Origin: Candidatus Methanohalarchaeum thermophilum
GTDB lineage: Archaea; Halobacteriota; Methanonatronarchaeia; Methanonatronarchaeales; Methanonatronarchaeaceae
NCBI GenBank assembly: GCA_001914405.1
Contig: MSDW01000001.1
Span: forward strand, 434,001-498,000
DNA length: 64,000 bases
Direction of reading: 5' to 3'
The notes beneath the pieces were generated by a model that saw nothing but the letters and a program-made list of their open reading frames with translations, searched no databases and had not been told where the DNA came from. Below are positions 34,032 to 56,839 of this stretch, in pieces. Numbering within the stretch: the stretch's first letter is position 1; each line of letters opens with the position of its first letter. The translations under genes were made by a program, and so were the position numbers.

Positions 34032-34721
34032 TTGACTGAATTAATTTATTTTGAAGATTGCTATAAAAAGGAATTTGAAGCCGAAGTAGAAGAAACGAAA
34101 AATAATAAGGTTATTTTAGATAAAACGGCTTTCTATCCTGAGGGAGGTGGACAACCATCTGATAAAGGAGTATTAGATGGTTCAAAAGTTAAAAAAGTAA
34201 TTAAAAAAGGAAATACAGTGGAACATGTGGTTGAAGATGAGTTGCCAAGAGAAGGAGATAAAGTAAAAGGCAAAATAGACTGGGATAGAAGATATCAGCA
34301 TATGAAGTACCATACTGCTCAACACATCCTTTCAGCTGTCGTACTACAGGATTACGAAGGCAAGACCACTGGAAACCAACTCTATTCAGATAGAGCTAGA
34401 ATTGATTTCGATGAAGATGTCACCGATAAGGTTTCAAAGATAGAAGACAAGGTTAATTCTATAATAGAAGATGAAAGAGAGATTAAGATATATCAAATGA
34501 AGAGAGAGGAGGCGCTCGAGGAACTTGATCCGGAAAGAACAAGAATAGATCTATTACCTGATTCTATTAAGGAGATAAGAATAGTGGAAATCACTGATCT
34601 AGATAAAACTGCTTGTGCAGGTACTCATGTGAGTAAAACGAGCGAATTAGGGGAATTTGAAATAAAAGGTACTGAAAGCAAGGGAAAAGGAAGAAAGAGG
34701 ATAGAATTTACTCTTGAGTAA
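34032..34721 (+). CDS. Alanyl-tRNA editing protein AlaX
   Basis: This protein resembles the editing domain of alanyl-tRNA synthetase and removes serine or glycine wrongly attached to tRNA-Ala. The two zinc/catalytic motifs are HTAQHILSAV (HxxxH, about residues 95-104) and CAGTHVSKTSELGEF (CxxxH, about 197-211). The N-terminal beta-barrel part includes ILDKTAFYPEGGGQPSDKG. I favour TTG at 34032 as the start because AGGAGGTG ends five bases before it; a GTG nine bases earlier lies inside this ribosome binding site. The 3' end overlaps the convergent DUF763 gene by 14 bases. Confidence 0.92.
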   Translation: MTELIYFEDCYKKEFEAEVEETKNNKVILDKTAFYPEGGGQPSDKGVLDGSKVKKVIKKGNTVEHVVEDELPREGDKVKGKIDWDRRYQHMKYHTAQHILSAVVLQDYEGKTTGNQLYSDRARIDFDEDVTDKVSKIEDKVNSIIEDEREIKIYQMKREEALEELDPERTRIDLLPDSIKEIRIVEITDLDKTACAGTHVSKTSELGEFEIKGTESKGKGRKRIEFTLE

Positions 34722-35820
34722 CAAAATCACTTAGTTTGTTCATGGCTTTTCTCTTTTCTTTTTCTTCTATTTTAGTTTCTTGAATGGCTCTTTTTAGAAA
34801 ATTAATTGACTTCTGGTATCTTTCTTCGTTTACTGGATAGGGTGTCCCATCTTTTCCTCCATGAGCGTAGCTATACGTTGCAGGATCTTTTTTACTATAT
34901 TCCTCTCCGTAAACCAGATCAGATATTAAGGCAAGGGCTCTTACTGTTTTAGGTCCAATCCCCTCTGTGCTTATTAGGTCCTTAAAGTCGGACGGTTGTT
35001 TCTCATATGCCTTATTTATGTTCTGGAAAATTTTTTTGCTGAAATCACTCTTGATTACCTCATGTTCAGGTGGAAAACTAATTTTATCTTCGTTTTTTAA
35101 AAACTTATCTAAATTGGATTGATTTTTATTAGTTAAAAAGGATTGGAAATGGGAAACTCCATCATTTACTAAATCAACAGAGGTTTTTCTGTTTTCTTTA
35201 GATTTCTTTGATGTTAAGTCAATTACATCTGGCTCCTTTTTTTTACTTGAGATTTCATTATGAGGTTCTTCTATATATGAGCCCAGGTTGTTTGATAGCC
35301 AGTGATATCTTCTAGCGTATCCACTTTTTTCATTCATTCCCTGCTGTATCACTATCCAATCCCCCTTATCTGAAAACATGGTACAATGATGGTAAAGTTT
35401 GTAATCATCTTGAAGACAAGTCGAATCAACCTTAGCTGACATTTTACTTGATCTAGATATTTCTTTTAGCTTACCATAATTGCATAATTCCTTGGAGTCT
35501 AAAATCTCTTTGGGAGTTTTTCTTGAGTTTTTACCCTTTCCGCCAGCTACCTTTATATCTAAATTCATTTCGTTAATAGATTCTTTAAGTGCACCGGTTA
35601 GAGTCGTGGTTAATCCAGAAGAATGCCAATCAAAAGAAACAGTGCATCCTAGAGCCTGGAAGAAAAAAGGATCTGAGAGTTTTTCCAATAATTTCCTTTC
35701 AGAATATTCTAAAACAATTAGTTTAGATATCTTACCAACAAGTTCCTTCATATCTTTAAATAACCAACTAGGGCATTTGCCAGTATGTAAAGGCAGATCA
35801 GTAGTTCCCTTTCGCTGCAA
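34708..35820 (-). CDS. DUF763 family protein
   Basis: This 370-residue protein has the DUF763 signature: start RKGTTDLPLHTGKCPSWLF, then FFQALGCTVSFDWHSSGLTT and KVDSTCLQDDYKLYHHCTMF. A helix-hairpin-helix-like stretch, STEGIGPKTVRALALISD (about residues 282-299), suggests DNA or RNA binding. DUF763 proteins are widespread in archaea and thermophilic bacteria; I know of no established function. The gene starts about 30 bp downstream of the predicted C/D box RNA on the same strand. Confidence 0.88.
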   Translation of the reverse strand: MQRKGTTDLPLHTGKCPSWLFKDMKELVGKISKLIVLEYSERKLLEKLSDPFFFQALGCTVSFDWHSSGLTTTLTGALKESINEMNLDIKVAGGKGKNSRKTPKEILDSKELCNYGKLKEISRSSKMSAKVDSTCLQDDYKLYHHCTMFSDKGDWIVIQQGMNEKSGYARRYHWLSNNLGSYIEEPHNEISSKKKEPDVIDLTSKKSKENRKTSVDLVNDGVSHFQSFLTNKNQSNLDKFLKNEDKISFPPEHEVIKSDFSKKIFQNINKAYEKQPSDFKDLISTEGIGPKTVRALALISDLVYGEEYSKKDPATYSYAHGGKDGTPYPVNEERYQKSINFLKRAIQETKIEEKEKRKAMNKLSDFVTQE

Positions 35821-37498: not shown

Positions 37499-38713
37499 TT
37501 ATTCCAATTTTTCTGCTTCAGAGATCGAACAAGGCTGTGAATCTTCTTTAACCGCTTTTTGAATGCAAGGATAGTAATTTTCTCTATACTCTGAGTCTTT
37601 CCAAGTACATTTTTTCCTTTTAAATAAATGGTGACTTCCCATCTTTTTCCAGACTTCGCTTAGGCTGTTCTCCCGATAATTTCCAAACGACAAGGGTGTA
37701 TGGAAGCAGGGAAGTAATTCTCCATTTGGAGAAACCCACATCCATCTTCTTCCTCCATAACATCCCATTATCTCGGGCTTGCGATATGAATAAGATGTGG
37801 ATACTTTGGGTCCTGTGTCCTTGGAGTTCATTTTTTCCTTAAATTTACTGATCCTTTGGTAGTCTTCCTTTGATAACAGGTTTTCTTCCTTATACTCCCA
37901 TTTCCCTCCGGGAACCACTTCGTCTATAAGTAGTTCATCAACGTTAATTTCGTTACAGTGTTTGTATATATCCCTTAGATGATCTATGCTCGAATTACTT
38001 GGATTGGCGGTGTATTCAACTACGGTTAACATATCTGATTCTTTGGCATATTTAACGGCATTAGATGCCTTTTCAAAAACTTCTAGGCCTCTAAACTCAT
38101 TGTGATCTTTTTTATATGGACTATCTAAACTTACATGGAGGCAATTAAGGTTTTTTTCATTTAATCTGTCTATAAAATCCCTATCTAATTTGTATCCATT
38201 GCTTATCAAATGCGTCGAGGCTTTATCTTTATCAACATAGTCGATTAATTCAAATATGTCATCTCTTAGAGTTGGTTCTCCTCCTTCAAAGCTTATGTGA
38301 TATGCTCCGAGATCTATTGCTTCATCTATAATTTCTTTCATCTCAGCTGTTGTAAGTTCGTTTTCTCCTTCCATTCCATGTACAATACAGTGGTTACAAT
38401 CACATTGGCATCGATTTGTAGTGAGCAACATTAGACTCTCTAGGGGTCTTCTTTTTAGAAATTTTCTCTTTAGTTGGTTTTTAACTAATCTATCAAATGG
38501 CTTGCTAGGTACCGCAGGAACCATGCTTGTTATATACACCCTCTCAGGATCTGATTTTGCAACCTTATCTAAAGAAGCGTGTTGATTAAATCCTTCCGTA
38601 ATGTAATCGATAATTGGGGAGAAAATTCCTTTAGATACCATATTAGCTTCGTTATTCTCTACTTCTAAACTTATATCAAATCCTAATCCGTTATAAACTG
38701 AATAACTCTTCAC
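37499..38713 (-). CDS. Radical SAM protein with C-terminal SPASM-like cysteines
   Basis: This 404-residue enzyme has the radical SAM motif CQCDCNHC (Cx3Cx2C, about residues 103-110) in LLTTNRCQCDCNHCIVHG, and SFEGGEPTLRDDIFELI, the second strand that binds SAM. A C-terminal region with CYGGRRWMWVSPNGELLPC and further cysteines near CTWKDSEYRENYYPC looks like a SPASM/twitch domain holding extra Fe-S clusters. The first 90 residues are an unusual extension. It begins a three-gene series with a UbiA-like protein and a binding-protein-fold protein. The substrate is unknown; heme, peptide or quinone-like carrier pathways are all possible. Confidence 0.8.
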   Translation of the reverse strand: MKSYSVYNGLGFDISLEVENNEANMVSKGIFSPIIDYITEGFNQHASLDKVAKSDPERVYITSMVPAVPSKPFDRLVKNQLKRKFLKRRPLESLMLLTTNRCQCDCNHCIVHGMEGENELTTAEMKEIIDEAIDLGAYHISFEGGEPTLRDDIFELIDYVDKDKASTHLISNGYKLDRDFIDRLNEKNLNCLHVSLDSPYKKDHNEFRGLEVFEKASNAVKYAKESDMLTVVEYTANPSNSSIDHLRDIYKHCNEINVDELLIDEVVPGGKWEYKEENLLSKEDYQRISKFKEKMNSKDTGPKVSTSYSYRKPEIMGCYGGRRWMWVSPNGELLPCFHTPLSFGNYRENSLSEVWKKMGSHHLFKRKKCTWKDSEYRENYYPCIQKAVKEDSQPCSISEAEKLE

Positions 38714-38763
38714 AAAAAAACCTCTAGCTCTATTTCTTTTTTAAGGTGGATTATCCTTCTAAC

Positions 38764-39705
38764 TTAAAAAAATATATGGAAGATTGCAGTGACATTTATT
38801 ATCAATAACATTAAGGTGTATGTTATTACTCCATAATGTGTCAACTTAATATGGGTTTCATGTTTTCTAGGATCTTCTAAGGAATCTAATATCTTCGTAA
38901 CCTTAGGTATATTGAGAATTAGATAGATCCCCAAGAAAACGAAATTTAGGCCAAAAATATACCACAATCCAAACAAGGTAATGTACTCAATCAGAGTCAT
39001 TAGTCCAGTGAATTTAATTGTTTGACTTGGGTTTAGAGGTTCGAACCTCCTCGAATCTTTATCATGATAAGATAAACATCCTATAACCACAGTTAAAGCT
39101 ATGAATAAACTTTTAGTCGATAGAATTGCATCTGGAGCCACCATAGCTACACCTCCAAAGGCCATAAGTCCACTTAATGACCGATAAATCCTTCTCTGCA
39201 GCTCTGTTAAACTATTTAAGGGAGGACTTGCGGAGTATGTTACCCCCCATATGAGCAAAATTACTGCTACAATCAATGTCTCAATATTAAATAAGAAGTA
39301 AGCAACGGATAAACAAAAGACCGTTTCAGTTACCATAAAGAAAATAATTGTCCATGGGGATAATAGACCGGTTACTAGGGGTAAAGTGGAATTAGGAGGC
39401 CCTAACCTCTCGTCTTCCCCGATCCACCAGTCATATAACATATCAGCAAGAGAAATAACTCTTGTTAGTAGGCCTGCGGCAAATAACCCAATAAAAATCT
39501 TCCAAACCTCTAATTTATGTGGAGAATAGATCATAAACAAGAATAAGCCTACACTTGCGCTCATTAATCCCCAAGGAAACCAAAGTAATCTGTGTACGCA
39601 AAGAATCCCTAAGATCTTATCAAAAGTACTATCCCCTCTTGGCCCTGCAACACCAAAGAGGATATCTACTAGTGAATATTCCTTGTTTTCTGATTTTTCC
39701 TCCAT
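38764..39705 (-). CDS. UbiA-like membrane prenyltransferase
   Basis: This 313-residue protein has eight or so hydrophobic segments. Two polar loops with aspartates resemble the Mg-binding motifs of UbiA enzymes: SLADMLYDWWIGEDERLG (about residues 84-101) and SYHDKDSRRFEPLN (about 217-230). The repeat spacing and helix count fit the UbiA superfamily, which attaches isoprenoid chains to aromatic or other head groups. The motif is not a perfect NDxxDxxxD, so the call is moderate. It lies between a radical SAM protein and a periplasmic-binding-fold protein. Confidence 0.62.
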   Translation of the reverse strand: MEEKSENKEYSLVDILFGVAGPRGDSTFDKILGILCVHRLLWFPWGLMSASVGLFLFMIYSPHKLEVWKIFIGLFAAGLLTRVISLADMLYDWWIGEDERLGPPNSTLPLVTGLLSPWTIIFFMVTETVFCLSVAYFLFNIETLIVAVILLIWGVTYSASPPLNSLTELQRRIYRSLSGLMAFGGVAMVAPDAILSTKSLFIALTVVIGCLSYHDKDSRRFEPLNPSQTIKFTGLMTLIEYITLFGLWYIFGLNFVFLGIYLILNIPKVTKILDSLEDPRKHETHIKLTHYGVITYTLMLLIINVTAIFHIFF

Positions 39706-39723
39706 TTTAGTTCACATTCCGAT

Positions 39724-40608
39724 TTAAGCCTCAATTTTGTCTAGTAAACTGAAGTCATAATATCTGCTTGGTTTTCTATCTAGATAACCCATCTCGATCA
39801 TCAGTTCTAGAATTTCATCCATAACTTCTTTGCTACCACGAATATCTAATCTGGGTTTATTATAATTTAATGCCTTTTCCGTGACTTTTGGATTTATACC
39901 TATGTATTTTGAACTTAACTGGGAAGCTTTTTTTGGATTACTTTTTACGAACTCTTCTGCTTCCTTTAAAGCTTCTAAAAATTTAGTAACTTCTTTAGTA
40001 TTTTTCTCTAGGTAACTGTCTGTTGTTGTAACGGAACACCCGGGAGATTTTGGTAATATATCCTTTCCCCGGCCAATTATTTTGCCAATTCCCATTTCAA
40101 CTGCTAACATAGCATAAGGTTCAACATTTGTAGTTAAATCAACTTCTTCACTTAGGAAAGAGAGCATAGCAGCGTCACCGGAGGGCATTCTATAAATATC
40201 CATGTTTTCTTGAGAGATCACATTATTCTTGAACAAAAACATAGTTGTTAGATCCTTCATTCCGCCCCTAGCGGGTAAAGAAATCTTGTGGCCTTTCATG
40301 TCTTCAAGCTCATTTATATCAGATTTTTTATTTGCAACAACAGCTGTTTCCTCGTATCCCGACCCTGATACGATAACTGTTTCCTTACCTTGTTCCCTAG
40401 ATTTCACAGTTCTCGTCCACGGCATTATAGTAAAATCTAACTGACCTGAAACCAACTTATCAGGAAGTAACCAAGCTGTTGGATCTAGATCATACTCAAC
40501 ATCTAGTCCTTTTTCCTCAAATAAGTCTTTCTCCATGGCCACATACGCTGGTAACTGACAAACTCCTCTTATTAAACCAAGTTTAATTTTCAATTTATCA
40601 ACCCTCAA
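39724..40608 (-). CDS. Periplasmic-binding-fold protein without signal peptide
   Basis: The fold is that of NMT1/THI5 or MqnA/MqnD-like proteins: IKLGLIRGVCQLPAYVAMEK at the N-terminus, then LVSGQLDFTIMPWTRTVKSR and DMKGHKISLPARGGMKDLTT. There is no signal peptide or lipobox, so it is probably cytoplasmic. That favours an enzyme such as the futalosine-pathway MqnA/D type over an ABC transporter binding protein, and no transporter genes are adjacent. A THI5-like cysteine-rich motif is absent. The start is TTG at 40608 with GAGGG overlapping. The long leader may be structured. Confidence 0.7.
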   Translation of the reverse strand: MRVDKLKIKLGLIRGVCQLPAYVAMEKDLFEEKGLDVEYDLDPTAWLLPDKLVSGQLDFTIMPWTRTVKSREQGKETVIVSGSGYEETAVVANKKSDINELEDMKGHKISLPARGGMKDLTTMFLFKNNVISQENMDIYRMPSGDAAMLSFLSEEVDLTTNVEPYAMLAVEMGIGKIIGRGKDILPKSPGCSVTTTDSYLEKNTKEVTKFLEALKEAEEFVKSNPKKASQLSSKYIGINPKVTEKALNYNKPRLDIRGSKEVMDEILELMIEMGYLDRKPSRYYDFSLLDKIEA

Positions 40609-44982: not shown

Positions 44983-45262
44983 GTTAATATTGTGAATCTG
45001 AATTGTGGTCGATTGCTCTTAGAGTAATTTTGACTGGTTGATTTTTTTTAAAATAATTTCTTTAACTTGGGTTCAAATAACTGTGAAGATCTCTTATTTC
45101 TGTTTTTATCAACTAAAATTTTTTATTTAATTTTTTAAGTTACTTTAAGTGCTTTAATTTGGTAAAAGCTGACAAAAATGTTTGATAATTTAGATCCAAA
45201 TTAACTTATTGGATGAAAATCTTTATTATTAGTTATTGTATAAAAAGGTTAACGGGATCACT

Positions 45263-46744
45263 ATGAATAAGAGGATGGTCATCTCAGCTTTACTTGCTTC
45301 AACGTTCCTATTGGTACTATCCTCCGGTTTGGTTGTATCTCAAACTGTTTCACATTCGGGAGCAGGGTTATCCTGTACCGATTGCCACGAAACAGATGGA
45401 GGAGAGATAGTATCTACTGATTATTCTTCAGAGTTATGCAGTAGATGTCACTCTAATGCATTTGATTCTTGGGAAAATTCAGGTCATACTGGATGGAGCC
45501 ATTACCCTGAATCTTACAATTTGTCTCAGATGGCTCCTTATGAAACCACTTGTTCTTGCCACTTTACTGAAGGAGGAGTTTGGGATCTAAAAACCAGTGA
45601 ATCTGCTTGGGATTCGAATAACTTTAATCCCTTTGTACAACCTTCAACCAAAGTAAAAGGAGATTTGAATCCTGGAGTAGATTGCGTAGCTTGTCACGAC
45701 CCCCATACAACTGAACTTAGAGTAAATGGATCTAAACTCTGTGGAAGCTGCCATAACGGACAGGGAACAAGTCCTCAGTTCGATCCAACGACTGGATTTG
45801 CTTTACATCACCCTAATCATCCTACATACGAACATTTAAAGGGAGAACCATTTGGTGAGGAAAGTCAATGGATAGCAGGGGAACATCCTAATAATAAGGT
45901 AATCGAGTGTACTGATTGTCATGGAGCACACGAATTTACATTTGATGCTGAAAAAGTTGCAAGCCAAGAAGAATGTTCTTCCTGCCATAATGCCTCAGGT
46001 TTAAGAGAAACTGTCAATGAATCAGTAGCTGATTTCCAACAGGAATATGATGAGGTTTATTCAATGATGGAAGAAAAAGCAAATTCTCTAGGGGTTAATA
46101 TACATGGAGGAGATTCGGATCACCCAAGGGACTTCACTCAGGACTATCAAGATGAAAAAACCAAACTAGCGAAAGCTGTGTTTTATCTCGAGTTTATAAC
46201 AGGTGAGGGCTCGTTTAAGGCTGGTGTTATAGATGTACACAACGAGCCTCTAGGTAAGAAATTACTTGGTAAAGCTGAAGCCCTGTTGGAAGACATAGAT
46301 GTTCCTTCAGACACTAAGCCACAGATAACAATTTCCATAGTTACTGAGGAAGGAGAAAGAGAAGTTGGTAAGAGCATCCAGATCAAAGCAACTTATGATG
46401 GTGAACCTATAGAATCGGCAAATATTACAGTAAGTGATCAAGTCAAGGAAACTAACGAGGACGGCGTAGCCACGCTATCATTTGCCTCAGAAGGACAGTA
46501 CGAGATTACCGCAAATCACCCTGATTATCAGGCCAATAGTAAGACAATAAGTGTAGTAGAAAGCTTTGAAGGTCAAGTTTCAGAACAACTAAGCTCGTTA
46601 GACTCTAAATTATCTAGCATCCAAGACACGGTTTCCGCGATAGAAGAAGACTTAAAGGAAACGCCGGGATTCACCTTTTTGATGGCGATAGCAGGTATAT
46701 TCGGAGCAGCATTGATAATCTATACGAGGAATAAAACTCACTAA
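45263..46744 (+). CDS. Membrane-anchored multiheme cytochrome c
   Basis: After a signal peptide (MNKRMVISALLASTFLLVL, cleaved near residue 26) the protein shows six CXXCH heme motifs: CTDCH, CSRCH, CVACH, CGSCH, CTDCH and CSSCH, within about residues 38-242, plus one CSCH at about 97 that lacks a residue of the usual spacing. An Ig-like or carboxypeptidase-regulatory-like domain follows (ISIVTEEGEREVGKSIQIK, about 345-430), then a short coiled coil and a C-terminal membrane helix (FTFLMAIAGIFGAALIIYT). It should lie on the outer face of the membrane and carry electrons. I prefer ATG at 45263, since the TTG nine codons earlier adds residues that spoil the signal peptide. Confidence 0.9.
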   Translation: MNKRMVISALLASTFLLVLSSGLVVSQTVSHSGAGLSCTDCHETDGGEIVSTDYSSELCSRCHSNAFDSWENSGHTGWSHYPESYNLSQMAPYETTCSCHFTEGGVWDLKTSESAWDSNNFNPFVQPSTKVKGDLNPGVDCVACHDPHTTELRVNGSKLCGSCHNGQGTSPQFDPTTGFALHHPNHPTYEHLKGEPFGEESQWIAGEHPNNKVIECTDCHGAHEFTFDAEKVASQEECSSCHNASGLRETVNESVADFQQEYDEVYSMMEEKANSLGVNIHGGDSDHPRDFTQDYQDEKTKLAKAVFYLEFITGEGSFKAGVIDVHNEPLGKKLLGKAEALLEDIDVPSDTKPQITISIVTEEGEREVGKSIQIKATYDGEPIESANITVSDQVKETNEDGVATLSFASEGQYEITANHPDYQANSKTISVVESFEGQVSEQLSSLDSKLSSIQDTVSAIEEDLKETPGFTFLMAIAGIFGAALIIYTRNKTH

Positions 46745-54162: not shown

Positions 54163-54843
54163 ATGGATAAAAAGGAAAATTCTAAGTTAAGTCGTAGAAA
54201 TTTGTTAAAGGTGATTGCTGCTGGTGGAGCAGCAGCAACAGTAGGAGTATCCGGCTGCACACAACAACAACAAGGAACCACCACCAAATACGCCTGCCCC
54301 TACTGTGACAAAGAGTTTGAGTCTCAAAGCAAACTTAAAACACATATTCAGGAAGATCATCCACAGGAAATATCAGATATAAAGAAATCAGGGGTAATTA
54401 CTTGGGAACCCGAAAAATGTGCTTCCTGTAGCAGATGTCTAATGGCCTGTTCCGCTTATCATGACGGTAGTATAAGCTATAAGATATCAAGGATCCTTTG
54501 GGAAGACGATGACTATATAGGCCAATTTGAATTCAGGAGACCTCTACTCTGCCAACAATGTGATTCTCCGGAGTGTTTCTATGCTTGTCCGATAGAGGGA
54601 GCTATGTATATTGATGAGGAAACTGGAGCTAGGTGCATAGACGAAGAAAAGTGCACCGGCTGTGGAGAATGCGTAGAAGCATGCCCGTTTGAGCCTACTA
54701 GAGTACTTATGAAAGCAGATGGAGATGCTGCAATTAAATGTGACTTGTGTTCAGATAGAGAAGGAGGCCCTGTTTGTGTTGAAGTGTGCGATAGGAATGC
54801 GCTGACATATGTAACTTCGGAAGAAAGAGAAGGAGGCACCTAA
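54163..54843 (+). CDS. Tat-exported Fe-S protein with a C2H2 zinc finger, AOR partner
   Basis: The N-terminus has a twin-arginine signal (SRRNLLKVIAAGG) and a lipobox-like VSGC at about residues 29-32, so it may be exported and lipid-anchored. A classic C2H2 finger follows: CPYC, twelve residues, H, four residues, H (about 45-66). Then come four [4Fe-4S] motifs: CASCSRCLMAC, CQQCDSPECFYACP, CTGCGECVEACP and CDLC...CVEVC. The Fe-S part resembles the electron-transfer subunit of molybdopterin or tungsten enzymes. It ends two bases before the AOR gene, of which it is the likely partner. Confidence 0.86.
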   Translation: MDKKENSKLSRRNLLKVIAAGGAAATVGVSGCTQQQQGTTTKYACPYCDKEFESQSKLKTHIQEDHPQEISDIKKSGVITWEPEKCASCSRCLMACSAYHDGSISYKISRILWEDDDYIGQFEFRRPLLCQQCDSPECFYACPIEGAMYIDEETGARCIDEEKCTGCGECVEACPFEPTRVLMKADGDAAIKCDLCSDREGGPVCVEVCDRNALTYVTSEEREGGT

Positions 54844-54844
54844 A

Positions 54845-56839
54845 ATGGATGGATATGTAGGTAAGATACTAAAGGTTAATTTAGATAATGGAACCACATC
54901 TGAGATCGATACTAGTAACTATGTGCCGGATTACATTGGAGGAGTTGGAATAGCTTACAGGCTTGTTTGGGAGAATATGGACGAGGATTTAACGGAATTC
55001 GATCCTGGTAATCCCTTGGTTTTCATGACTGGGCCATGTTCAGGAACCTCTCTACCATCAACGGGTAGAACAGAAATTTCGGGACTAGCGCCAGAAGGTT
55101 ATCCAGAGCCATGGGTAGCTAATTCTGGGTTTGGAGGCGATTTCGCGGCTAAATTGAAATATGCTGGATATGATGGGGTAATAATAGTTGGAAAAGCTGA
55201 AGAACCAGTTTACCTGTTGATAAGTGAAGATGGCGTTGAAGTAAAGGATGCAACACATCTTTGGGGTTTAGGAACCCTAAAAGCACAGGAACTATTAGCA
55301 AGAAATCATAGTGATGATATGGGAGCAGCACTAATCGGGCCGGCAGGTGAAAACAAAGTAAGATGGGCTACAGTTCAAGCTAGGACAGAAAATGCAGCAG
55401 GACAAGGAGGTTACGGAGCAGTAATGGGCTCTAAGAACCTTAAAGCCGTTGTAACTATTCCAGGCGATACAGAAATTACTGTAGCAGATCCGGAAGCTGT
55501 TATAGAAGAATCCAAGAAGATATCAGAGGAATTAGCTACTCCAAATCAACTTGAAGGAGAATTAGAAACCGAAGAATCACAATGGACAACCAGACATCAA
55601 AGTTGTGGTTTTTCAGCTTGTACTGGAGGTTTTGCAGGATGTCTACCAGTCTATTATAGTAATGTACCCAGAAAGTTTACTGGTTCAGGAACGGTTTCCG
55701 GGGTAAAGTATTGTGTAGGAAACTGTGGTCCTTGGCTATATAATGGAGATTGGGGAGATACAAATACAGCCTTAGAAGTTAATAAACTCTGTGATGATCT
55801 AAGCCTTAATCACTGGGAAGCCTTTGCTGGACTAAACTGGTTCTTATGTAATGCCTACAACGAAGGCGAATTAAATGAGTTGATGGGTGAAGAATTAGAT
55901 ATGAACGAGGATGCTCCACATGTTTACCCAGATACTACTGCTAATGTAGGTTTTTCAAAAGAGTTTGCTGTTAAATTCTTAAGAAAAATAGCACACAGAG
56001 AAGGAGAAGATGCTGATATCTTAGCAGAAGGAACTCCTAGAGCAGCGGAAGAAATGGGGCTAGAAGAAATTGCTAAAGAAACACATAAACATGGATACGG
56101 CCCTCACTGGGACGGAAGATATCTACATTTTATACATTACCCAGTATGGGTAGTATCAGCATTAGCATGGGCAGTTCAACCGAGAGACCCATTTAATCAA
56201 CAGCACGGTTATCCAGAAAGGTTACCATCATTCGTTGAAGAATGGGCAGGAGATACAAATATAATGGGAACAGAAACCCTGCCATATGATACTGTCGTAG
56301 ACTTAGCAGCAGAAGTTTATGGAACAGAAAACGCCCTAACCGGATGGAAAAACACTGAATTAGGCTACAAAGACAAGGAAATACCAGAAATATGGCACGA
56401 AAACAGGCAATTAATGAAAGGAAGCGTCCCAGCATGTGATAGACAATTCCCACTAATTATAGACCCAAGAGAAGATGATAACATAGGAGATTACGAAGCT
56501 GAACTAAGAATGTTTAACGCCGTAGTAGGAACGGATTGGTCCTTAGAAGAAATGTACGAAGCATGTGAAAAAATCTGGAATGTTTACAGAAGTTGTCATG
56601 TCCTACAAGGAAGAACGAGAGAGCAAGATGAAACCGTAATTGATTACTTCAAACAACCCTCCGACTGGCCCGATGAGCCACAAGAATTAGATCCAGATAA
56701 ATTTAGGGACTTACTCGAAAACTATTATGAAGAAAGAGGATGGGACAAAGAAAATGGATGGCCAACCAGGGATAAACTAGAAGAACTTGGATTAAGTGAT
56801 GTGGCAGATAAACTAGAAGAAAAAGGCAAACTACCATAA
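54845..56839 (+). CDS. Aldehyde ferredoxin oxidoreductase (AOR)-family enzyme
   Basis: This 664-residue protein matches the AOR family: YIGGVGIAYRLVWENM, LVFMTGPCSGTSLPSTGR, WVANSGFGGDFAAKLKYAGY and GRTENAAG-like ARTENAAGQGGYGAVMGSKN (about residues 176-195). These regions bind the tungsten bis-pyranopterin. The cluster cysteines are spaced C253-x4-C258-x6-C265 with later ones near CVGNC and PACDRQF, unlike the Cx2Cx3C of classical AOR. It has no signal peptide of its own, but its Tat partner could carry it across the membrane. The substrate could be an aldehyde or another carboxylate-level compound; it is unknown. Confidence 0.9.
   Translation: MDGYVGKILKVNLDNGTTSEIDTSNYVPDYIGGVGIAYRLVWENMDEDLTEFDPGNPLVFMTGPCSGTSLPSTGRTEISGLAPEGYPEPWVANSGFGGDFAAKLKYAGYDGVIIVGKAEEPVYLLISEDGVEVKDATHLWGLGTLKAQELLARNHSDDMGAALIGPAGENKVRWATVQARTENAAGQGGYGAVMGSKNLKAVVTIPGDTEITVADPEAVIEESKKISEELATPNQLEGELETEESQWTTRHQSCGFSACTGGFAGCLPVYYSNVPRKFTGSGTVSGVKYCVGNCGPWLYNGDWGDTNTALEVNKLCDDLSLNHWEAFAGLNWFLCNAYNEGELNELMGEELDMNEDAPHVYPDTTANVGFSKEFAVKFLRKIAHREGEDADILAEGTPRAAEEMGLEEIAKETHKHGYGPHWDGRYLHFIHYPVWVVSALAWAVQPRDPFNQQHGYPERLPSFVEEWAGDTNIMGTETLPYDTVVDLAAEVYGTENALTGWKNTELGYKDKEIPEIWHENRQLMKGSVPACDRQFPLIIDPREDDNIGDYEAELRMFNAVVGTDWSLEEMYEACEKIWNVYRSCHVLQGRTREQDETVIDYFKQPSDWPDEPQELDPDKFRDLLENYYEERGWDKENGWPTRDKLEELGLSDVADKLEEKGKLP

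Follow-up and report, generated by a model that had tools for sequence, protein, structure and literature searches.

Results

The cassette

We analysed a stretch of 64,000 nucleotides (nt) from Candidatus Methanohalarchaeum thermophilum (positions 434,001 to 498,000 of contig MSDW01000001.1, assembly GCA_001914405.1), hereafter the window, in which three genes form the cassette that is the subject of this study. The genome has a size of 2.14 Mb (G000; G and L numbers denote the genomes and loci compared). In order of transcription, the cassette consists of:

39724..40608, minus strand: gene 1, binding-fold protein, NMT1/THI5-like, 294 amino acids, TTG start
38764..39705, minus strand: gene 2, membrane protein with predicted UbiA prenyltransferase fold, 313 amino acids, ATG start
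37499..38713, minus strand: gene 3, radical SAM (S-adenosylmethionine)/SPASM-twitch protein, paralogue D, 404 amino acids, GTG start

The gaps are 18 nt between the binding-fold and UbiA-like genes and 50 nt between the UbiA-like and radical SAM genes. A first-pass annotation made from the sequence alone had correctly listed them as three consecutive minus-strand genes, and had proposed that they belong to a pathway for a lipid carrier of the methanophenazine type and combine the enzyme types of the futalosine route to menaquinone.

The membrane protein matches no family in Pfam or NCBIfam at E<=0.1, PF01040 included, and no sequence in the PDB up to E 10, in contrast to the canonical UbiA (UbiA1) of the Methanosarcina-like genome G138, which matches PF01040 at 6.7e-40. 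When its predicted model (pLDDT 80.8, pTM 0.81) was compared with solved structures, Foldseek gave UbiA homologues on all of ranks 1-13 and membrane PRTase on ranks 14-15, and the VIA structure comparison had UbiA-type folds on top with Z of 15-21 and trans-prenyl synthases below 12. The model aligns with 4od4 at Z 21.1 (252 residues, root mean square deviation (rmsd) 2.6) and with 6m31 at Z 20.9 (266 residues, rmsd 4.7). UbiA enzymes rank first in both comparisons, in line with the earlier label of UbiA-like prenyltransferase, and as judged from the model the protein has the UbiA prenyltransferase fold. Members of the UbiA superfamily have two Asp-rich motifs, and the enzymes bind magnesium diphosphate at loops after the second and sixth helices. 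Nine sequences of the window-type protein share two strictly conserved acidic stretches, D88..D92..E97-D98 and H214-D-K-D217, which do not have the usual motif spelling and lie in or close to the loops that follow long helices 2 and 6 of the model.

The radical SAM protein passes the Pfam cut-offs of PF04055 (8.7e-20) and of the SPASM domain PF13186 (1e-8), and its CxxxCxxC and GGEP motifs and three auxiliary cysteines, described as SPASM-like already in the first-pass annotation, place it among the radical SAM/SPASM-twitch proteins. The best relatives in NCBIfam are of the AhbD/NirJ types, far below their curated cut-offs (118 against 500 bits). Its model (pLDDT 92.2) is closest in fold to SkfB (Z 26.7, 289 aligned, rmsd 3.2), SuiB, BlsE and PqqE, and with most of the structure chains listed the alignment begins at about residue 63 and leaves out the first 60 or so residues. 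The N-terminal extension, which had been noticed as unusual, is about 90 residues long and conserved in the paralogues. Outside the Halobacteriota, 398 genomes were sampled from the phylum to which G196, a record titled Bathyarchaeota, belongs. Apart from the three matches in G196, the radical SAM matches listed there all begin at or beyond profile position 70, and these relatives thus lack most of the extension.

The CxxxCxxC motif and the three auxiliary cysteines are kept in 30 of 31 aligned radical SAM copies and GGE in 22, the nine copies without it being the A/m25 branch. All six cysteines are lost from the A-type copy of G138 (L025:9133-10347), which is likely a pseudo-enzyme partner; in G022, G078 and G190 the orthologues have retained all six. 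A tree of the 31 sequences, with a midpoint root only, joins the window group's A paralogue to the Methanosarcina-type copy that is partly degenerate (100/99); the two remaining copies cluster together within each group, as one clade of the window type and one of the UbiA1 type. An old common pathway, followed by separate duplications, is suggested for the radical SAM trio.

The binding-fold protein is a member of the NMT1/THI5-like family (PF09084, NMT1, 8e-20, 72.1 bits against a curated cut-off of 20.5), and the best solved relative of its profile is THI5, the thiamin pyrimidine synthase (7e-13). The former description as MqnA/D-like had to be abandoned in favour of this NMT1/THI5 type: PF02621, the family of MqnA and MqnD, is not among its Pfam matches at E<=0.1 and has no match in the window genome, which rules out the futalosine genes proper. 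A Kyte-Doolittle scan showed no hydrophobic N-terminus in any of the nine aligned orthologues, and none of the window neighbours examined (TiaS, DUF763, HTH, thermosome) is an ABC (ATP-binding cassette) gene. The export signal and the ABC partner genes of an ABC solute-binding protein are thus both missing, as had been stated from the outset.

Distribution of the gene set

All counts refer to the same 196 genomes of Halobacteriota, with thresholds of at least 175 bits for the flavoprotein described below, about 135 bits or more for the radical SAM family (kept by hand among the matches listed), and at least 300 bits for HdrE and for UbiA1. The UbiA-fold membrane protein and the binding-fold protein occur in one and the same set of 11 genomes, the latter at 53-63% identity in the ten besides the window genome; a weak match to it in G029 (23% identity) was not taken for an orthologue. 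The radical SAM orthologue (52-64% identity) is present in these 11 and in one fragmentary genome. The full cassette, adjacent on one contig in ten genomes and interrupted by contig ends in G043, is beyond chance, since the radical SAM orthologue is conserved to this degree and all three genes recur in 11 genomes of four families. A scan of GTDB 220 with one genome per species gave nine distinct cassette loci: SCG-AAA382B04, seven metagenome-assembled genomes titled Methanocellales, Methanocellaceae or Methanosarcinales, and one titled Bathyarchaeota. The cluster of G196 lies on a contig of 9.9 kb, compatible with transfer or mis-binning; HdrE gave no match in G196-G198, an absence that is no evidence by itself.

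The cassette has further partners. It lies within a few genes of a flavoprotein, a short radical SAM protein and two full-length radical SAM paralogues in Methanocellales-type genomes, the Met12 lineage (G006, L021) has the complete cluster of seven genes, and in the window genome the four partners stand together about 84 kb from the cassette (L017). The best solved relative of the flavoprotein profile is digeranylgeranylglycerophospholipid (DGGGPL) reductase (1.6e-50), with geranylgeranyl reductases also near. This flavoprotein is found in 46 genomes and the radical SAM family, among the matches listed, in 49, with an overlap of 46. These core genomes span seven families, and 45 of them have three radical SAM copies each (hand-kept rows among the matches listed), the exception being G070 with one row. 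Outside the core, G081, G082 (63% complete) and G148 have radical SAM family members without a strong flavoprotein match, and G081 has one match to PF02621.

Canonical UbiA1 is found in 34 genomes and the window-type UbiA in 11, never both in one genome, and one or the other is present in 45 of the 46 core genomes; the remaining one, G070, is a 76% complete assembly. UbiA1 adjoins the flavoprotein in 26 of its 34 genomes and a radical SAM copy stands next to that pair in 25; UbiA, flavoprotein and radical SAM genes follow in a row in G138. A radical SAM copy of G138 also adjoins a gene above the cut-off of NF040627 ("GFPS_Meth", geranylfarnesyl diphosphate synthase), and a homologous synthase-type gene adjoins a radical SAM copy in G022 and in G078, which is of another family.

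HdrE is the cytochrome b subunit of the heterodisulfide reductase that depends on methanophenazine. PF02665 was rejected as its marker because it is too weak (6 of 23 genomes) and misses G022, which has HdrE according to the profile used instead, built from five sequences taken from PF02665 matches. HdrE was found in 35 genomes, namely the 34 with UbiA1 and the window genome, which is the sole HdrE genome with a window-type UbiA and has its HdrE and HdrD genes adjacent. All 35 hold the radical SAM family and the flavoprotein. Co-occurrence with cytochrome-containing methanogens was what the first-pass annotation had put forward as a test, and this count is a close equivalent. MqnA/D (PF02621) occurs in 60 of the genomes and in none of the 46 core genomes. 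The window genome, having HdrDE and no MqnA/D, therefore needs a carrier that is not made by the futalosine route.

Genes around the cassette

The gene of the tRNA-modifying TiaS starts 13 nt past the cassette, and a TiaS-like gene, judged by eye, is also found past the cassette of G010, a relative from the same family (L019). We treated TiaS as a passenger because none was noticed beside the cassette in the Methanocellales-type loci L020-L022. The other surrounding genes are those of DUF763, a helix-turn-helix (HTH) protein and a thermosome, and the electron-transfer genes that had been reported nearby are indeed present in the window:

34708-35820: DUF763 gene, 1.7 kb from the cassette
45236-46744: multihaem cytochrome c gene
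54163-56839: 4Fe-4S protein and aldehyde ferredoxin oxidoreductase

Seen from the cassette, the multihaem cytochrome c gene lies beyond the thermosome gene both in the window and, judged by eye, in G010 (L019:10422-12017). A DUF763-like gene (L031:1-1056, by eye) adjoins UbiA1 in G078, and the proximity to DUF763 that it shares with the window is probably due to chance. CcmE-like genes stand next to the geranylfarnesyl synthase gene, a radical SAM gene or both in three genomes of two families (L023:12067-12444, L026:8825-9217 and L032:11233-11607), the first called by a library scan and the other two alike by eye. Near the other radical SAM genes of the window genome, a helicase-like gene (L017:5646-7904) carries an intein-like insertion right after the P-loop, which is absent in the homologue of G010 (L018:12220-14025).

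Discussion

Methanophenazine carries the respiratory electrons in methanogens with cytochromes. It is 2-(2,3-dihydropentaprenyloxy)phenazine, and a reductase of prenyl double bonds would fit its synthesis. We hypothesize, with a probability of roughly 0.7, that the cassette contributes to the synthesis of the prenylated electron carrier in the membrane of this methanogen, which would most likely be methanophenazine itself or a closely related compound. The pathway that we propose rests on gene adjacency, folds, domain families and co-occurrence. The radical SAM paralogues, three per genome and one of them sometimes without clusters, would build or modify the redox head group, and in the lineage of the window the cytoplasmic binding-fold protein may act in this as well. 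The UbiA-fold protein, going by its model, would join the head group to a polyprenyl diphosphate, and the flavoprotein, resembling geranylgeranyl reductases, would saturate one double bond of the side chain. The best reading of the window lineage is that it has a second family of prenyltransferases. The lipid-carrier pathway of the first-pass annotation is upheld by the UbiA fold, the partner genes and the co-occurrence with HdrE, and has to be widened in that the three genes are only a part of the set. According to the passages on the molecule in PMC3017947, its C25 side chain is ether-linked to the phenazine, and there and in the corresponding part of PMC8546582 the geranylfarnesyl diphosphate synthase MM_0789 is the sole enzyme assigned to it.

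Several observations weigh against this interpretation. No HdrE match was found in 11 of the 46 core genomes, namely G070 and every window-type genome except that of the window itself (ten of 11). Met12 (Candidatus Serpentinarchaeum) is described in the relevant part of PMC11176372 as a non-methanogen without Mcr, Hdr and Fpo that keeps Rnf and multihaem cytochromes; its carrier might serve Rnf and cytochrome c, with Rnf as a guess for the user, or the product might differ. Radical SAM copies also lie near haem-type genes (L026, by eye) and CcmE-like genes, neighbours that would suit a cluster for the respiratory chain as well as a role in cytochromes. The binding-fold gene was not found in the UbiA1 genomes, hhalign gave no sequence link between window-type UbiA and UbiA1 (probability 0.35%), and the former lacks what we take to be the usual spelling of the first Asp-rich motif. 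The co-occurrence statistics, moreover, ignore relatedness, and the core is found in seven families only.

Alternatively, the window-type genomes may make a different prenylated redox carrier, with another head group and with a prenyltransferase and the binding-fold enzyme of their own, and only the UbiA1 genomes methanophenazine. The different UbiA, the additional binding-fold and short radical SAM genes, the ten of 11 window-type genomes without an HdrE match and the separate clades of the two catalytic-type radical SAM copies would all agree with two products; the window genome itself has HdrDE, however, and the flavoprotein and the A-type radical SAM protein are common to both groups, so that we regard a different carrier as unlikely, though it has to be taken seriously. 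We find it quite improbable that the radical SAM family instead serves haem synthesis or cytochrome c maturation with the prenyl genes as mere neighbours, as its AhbD/NirJ-type relatives, the haem-type genes of L026 and the adjoining CcmE-like genes of G138, G022 and G190 could suggest. The AhbD/NirJ matches fall well short of the curated cut-offs. The set goes with UbiA and the flavoprotein and is missing from almost all of the MqnA/D genomes, which belong to groups that also have cytochromes c if our matching of them to those treated in parts of PMC9012536 and PMC11176372 is right.

A pathway for modification of membrane lipids, giving a variant of archaeol or of a tetraether lipid, would agree with the core archaeal lipid enzymes among the UbiA and geranylgeranyl reductase families, but the distribution of the set follows HdrE, and weaker, generic matches to both families are additionally present in many of the genomes; we hold it to be slightly more improbable still than a role in haem or cytochromes. 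The least credible alternative is that the binding-fold gene is a component of ABC transport, unrelated to the other two genes of the cassette. Its families SsuA and NMT1 do consist mostly of transport proteins, but the lacking hydrophobic N-terminus, the neighbours without ABC genes and the partner genes that stay constant across the 11 genomes speak against transport, a reading that we disfavour.

The carrier pathway may be taken one step further, to a claim that we put at somewhat less than even odds: that the set is the methanophenazine pathway of the HdrDE archaea of the phylum, with a radical SAM trio (one member dispensable as an enzyme, being cluster-free in a Methanosarcina-like genome), a reductase like those of geranylgeranyl and a UbiA, and that in Methanonatronarchaeia and Met12 a second UbiA-fold family and a THI5-like cytoplasmic enzyme have replaced part of it. 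If this is true, the non-methanogenic, reportedly electron-fed lineage of Met12 owns an unrecognised membrane carrier. The gene set predicts such a carrier there, and none is proposed for Met12 in the sections of PMC11176372 that deal with it.

The biosynthesis of methanophenazine was called undeciphered in 2021 (in a passage of PMC8546582) and still to be discovered in 2024 (likewise in PMC11477647), and the remark in the first-pass annotation that it is not settled agrees with both. A genome study from 2022 used the geranylfarnesyl diphosphate synthase as a marker, as told in part of PMC9478090, and an earlier suggestion for Methanonatronarchaeum, in a passage of PMC5852551, was UbiX-UbiD with AcoX. 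No report linking radical SAM proteins to the synthesis of methanophenazine was found in open-access full text, as far as its passages on the subject go, a scope that leaves out most subscription journals and bioRxiv preprints. For lipids of Methanonatronarchaeia, term searches gave neither methanophenazine nor quinone in PMC6423904 and no methanophenazine in PMC10873845, within the text that the terms cover. About five genes with near-perfect co-occurrence make this long-open pathway testable by knockout in a tractable methanogen, and the set also offers a marker of the carrier for uncultured archaea.

The idea of a carrier is by now well supported, beyond what the sequence-only annotation could show, and the comparison with the futalosine pathway is one of analogy. 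That pathway (MqnA-E, MqnP) uses radical SAM enzymes, cytoplasmic binding-fold enzymes and a UbiA prenyltransferase, and the cassette resembles it in logic only: MqnA/D is lacking, the best family matches of the radical SAM protein are not MqnC or MqnE, and the radical SAM proteins are of the SPASM/twitch type with an N-terminal part of their own, without homology step by step. THI5, the nearest solved protein to the binding-fold protein, aligns with it over about 217 of 293 profile positions at 51 bits. The nearest solved relatives of the partner flavoprotein are the geranylgeranyl and archaeal lipid (DGGGPL) reductases, from which it stands apart as a group of its own that occurs along with the radical SAM set, with at least 177 bits against at most 110 for the next genes. 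With the biosynthesis of methanophenazine in Methanosarcina there is a likeness in that the same radical SAM family and flavoprotein are found there together with HdrE; the lineage of the window differs in having a UbiA-fold protein without detectable similarity to UbiA1 and, in addition, the binding-fold gene.

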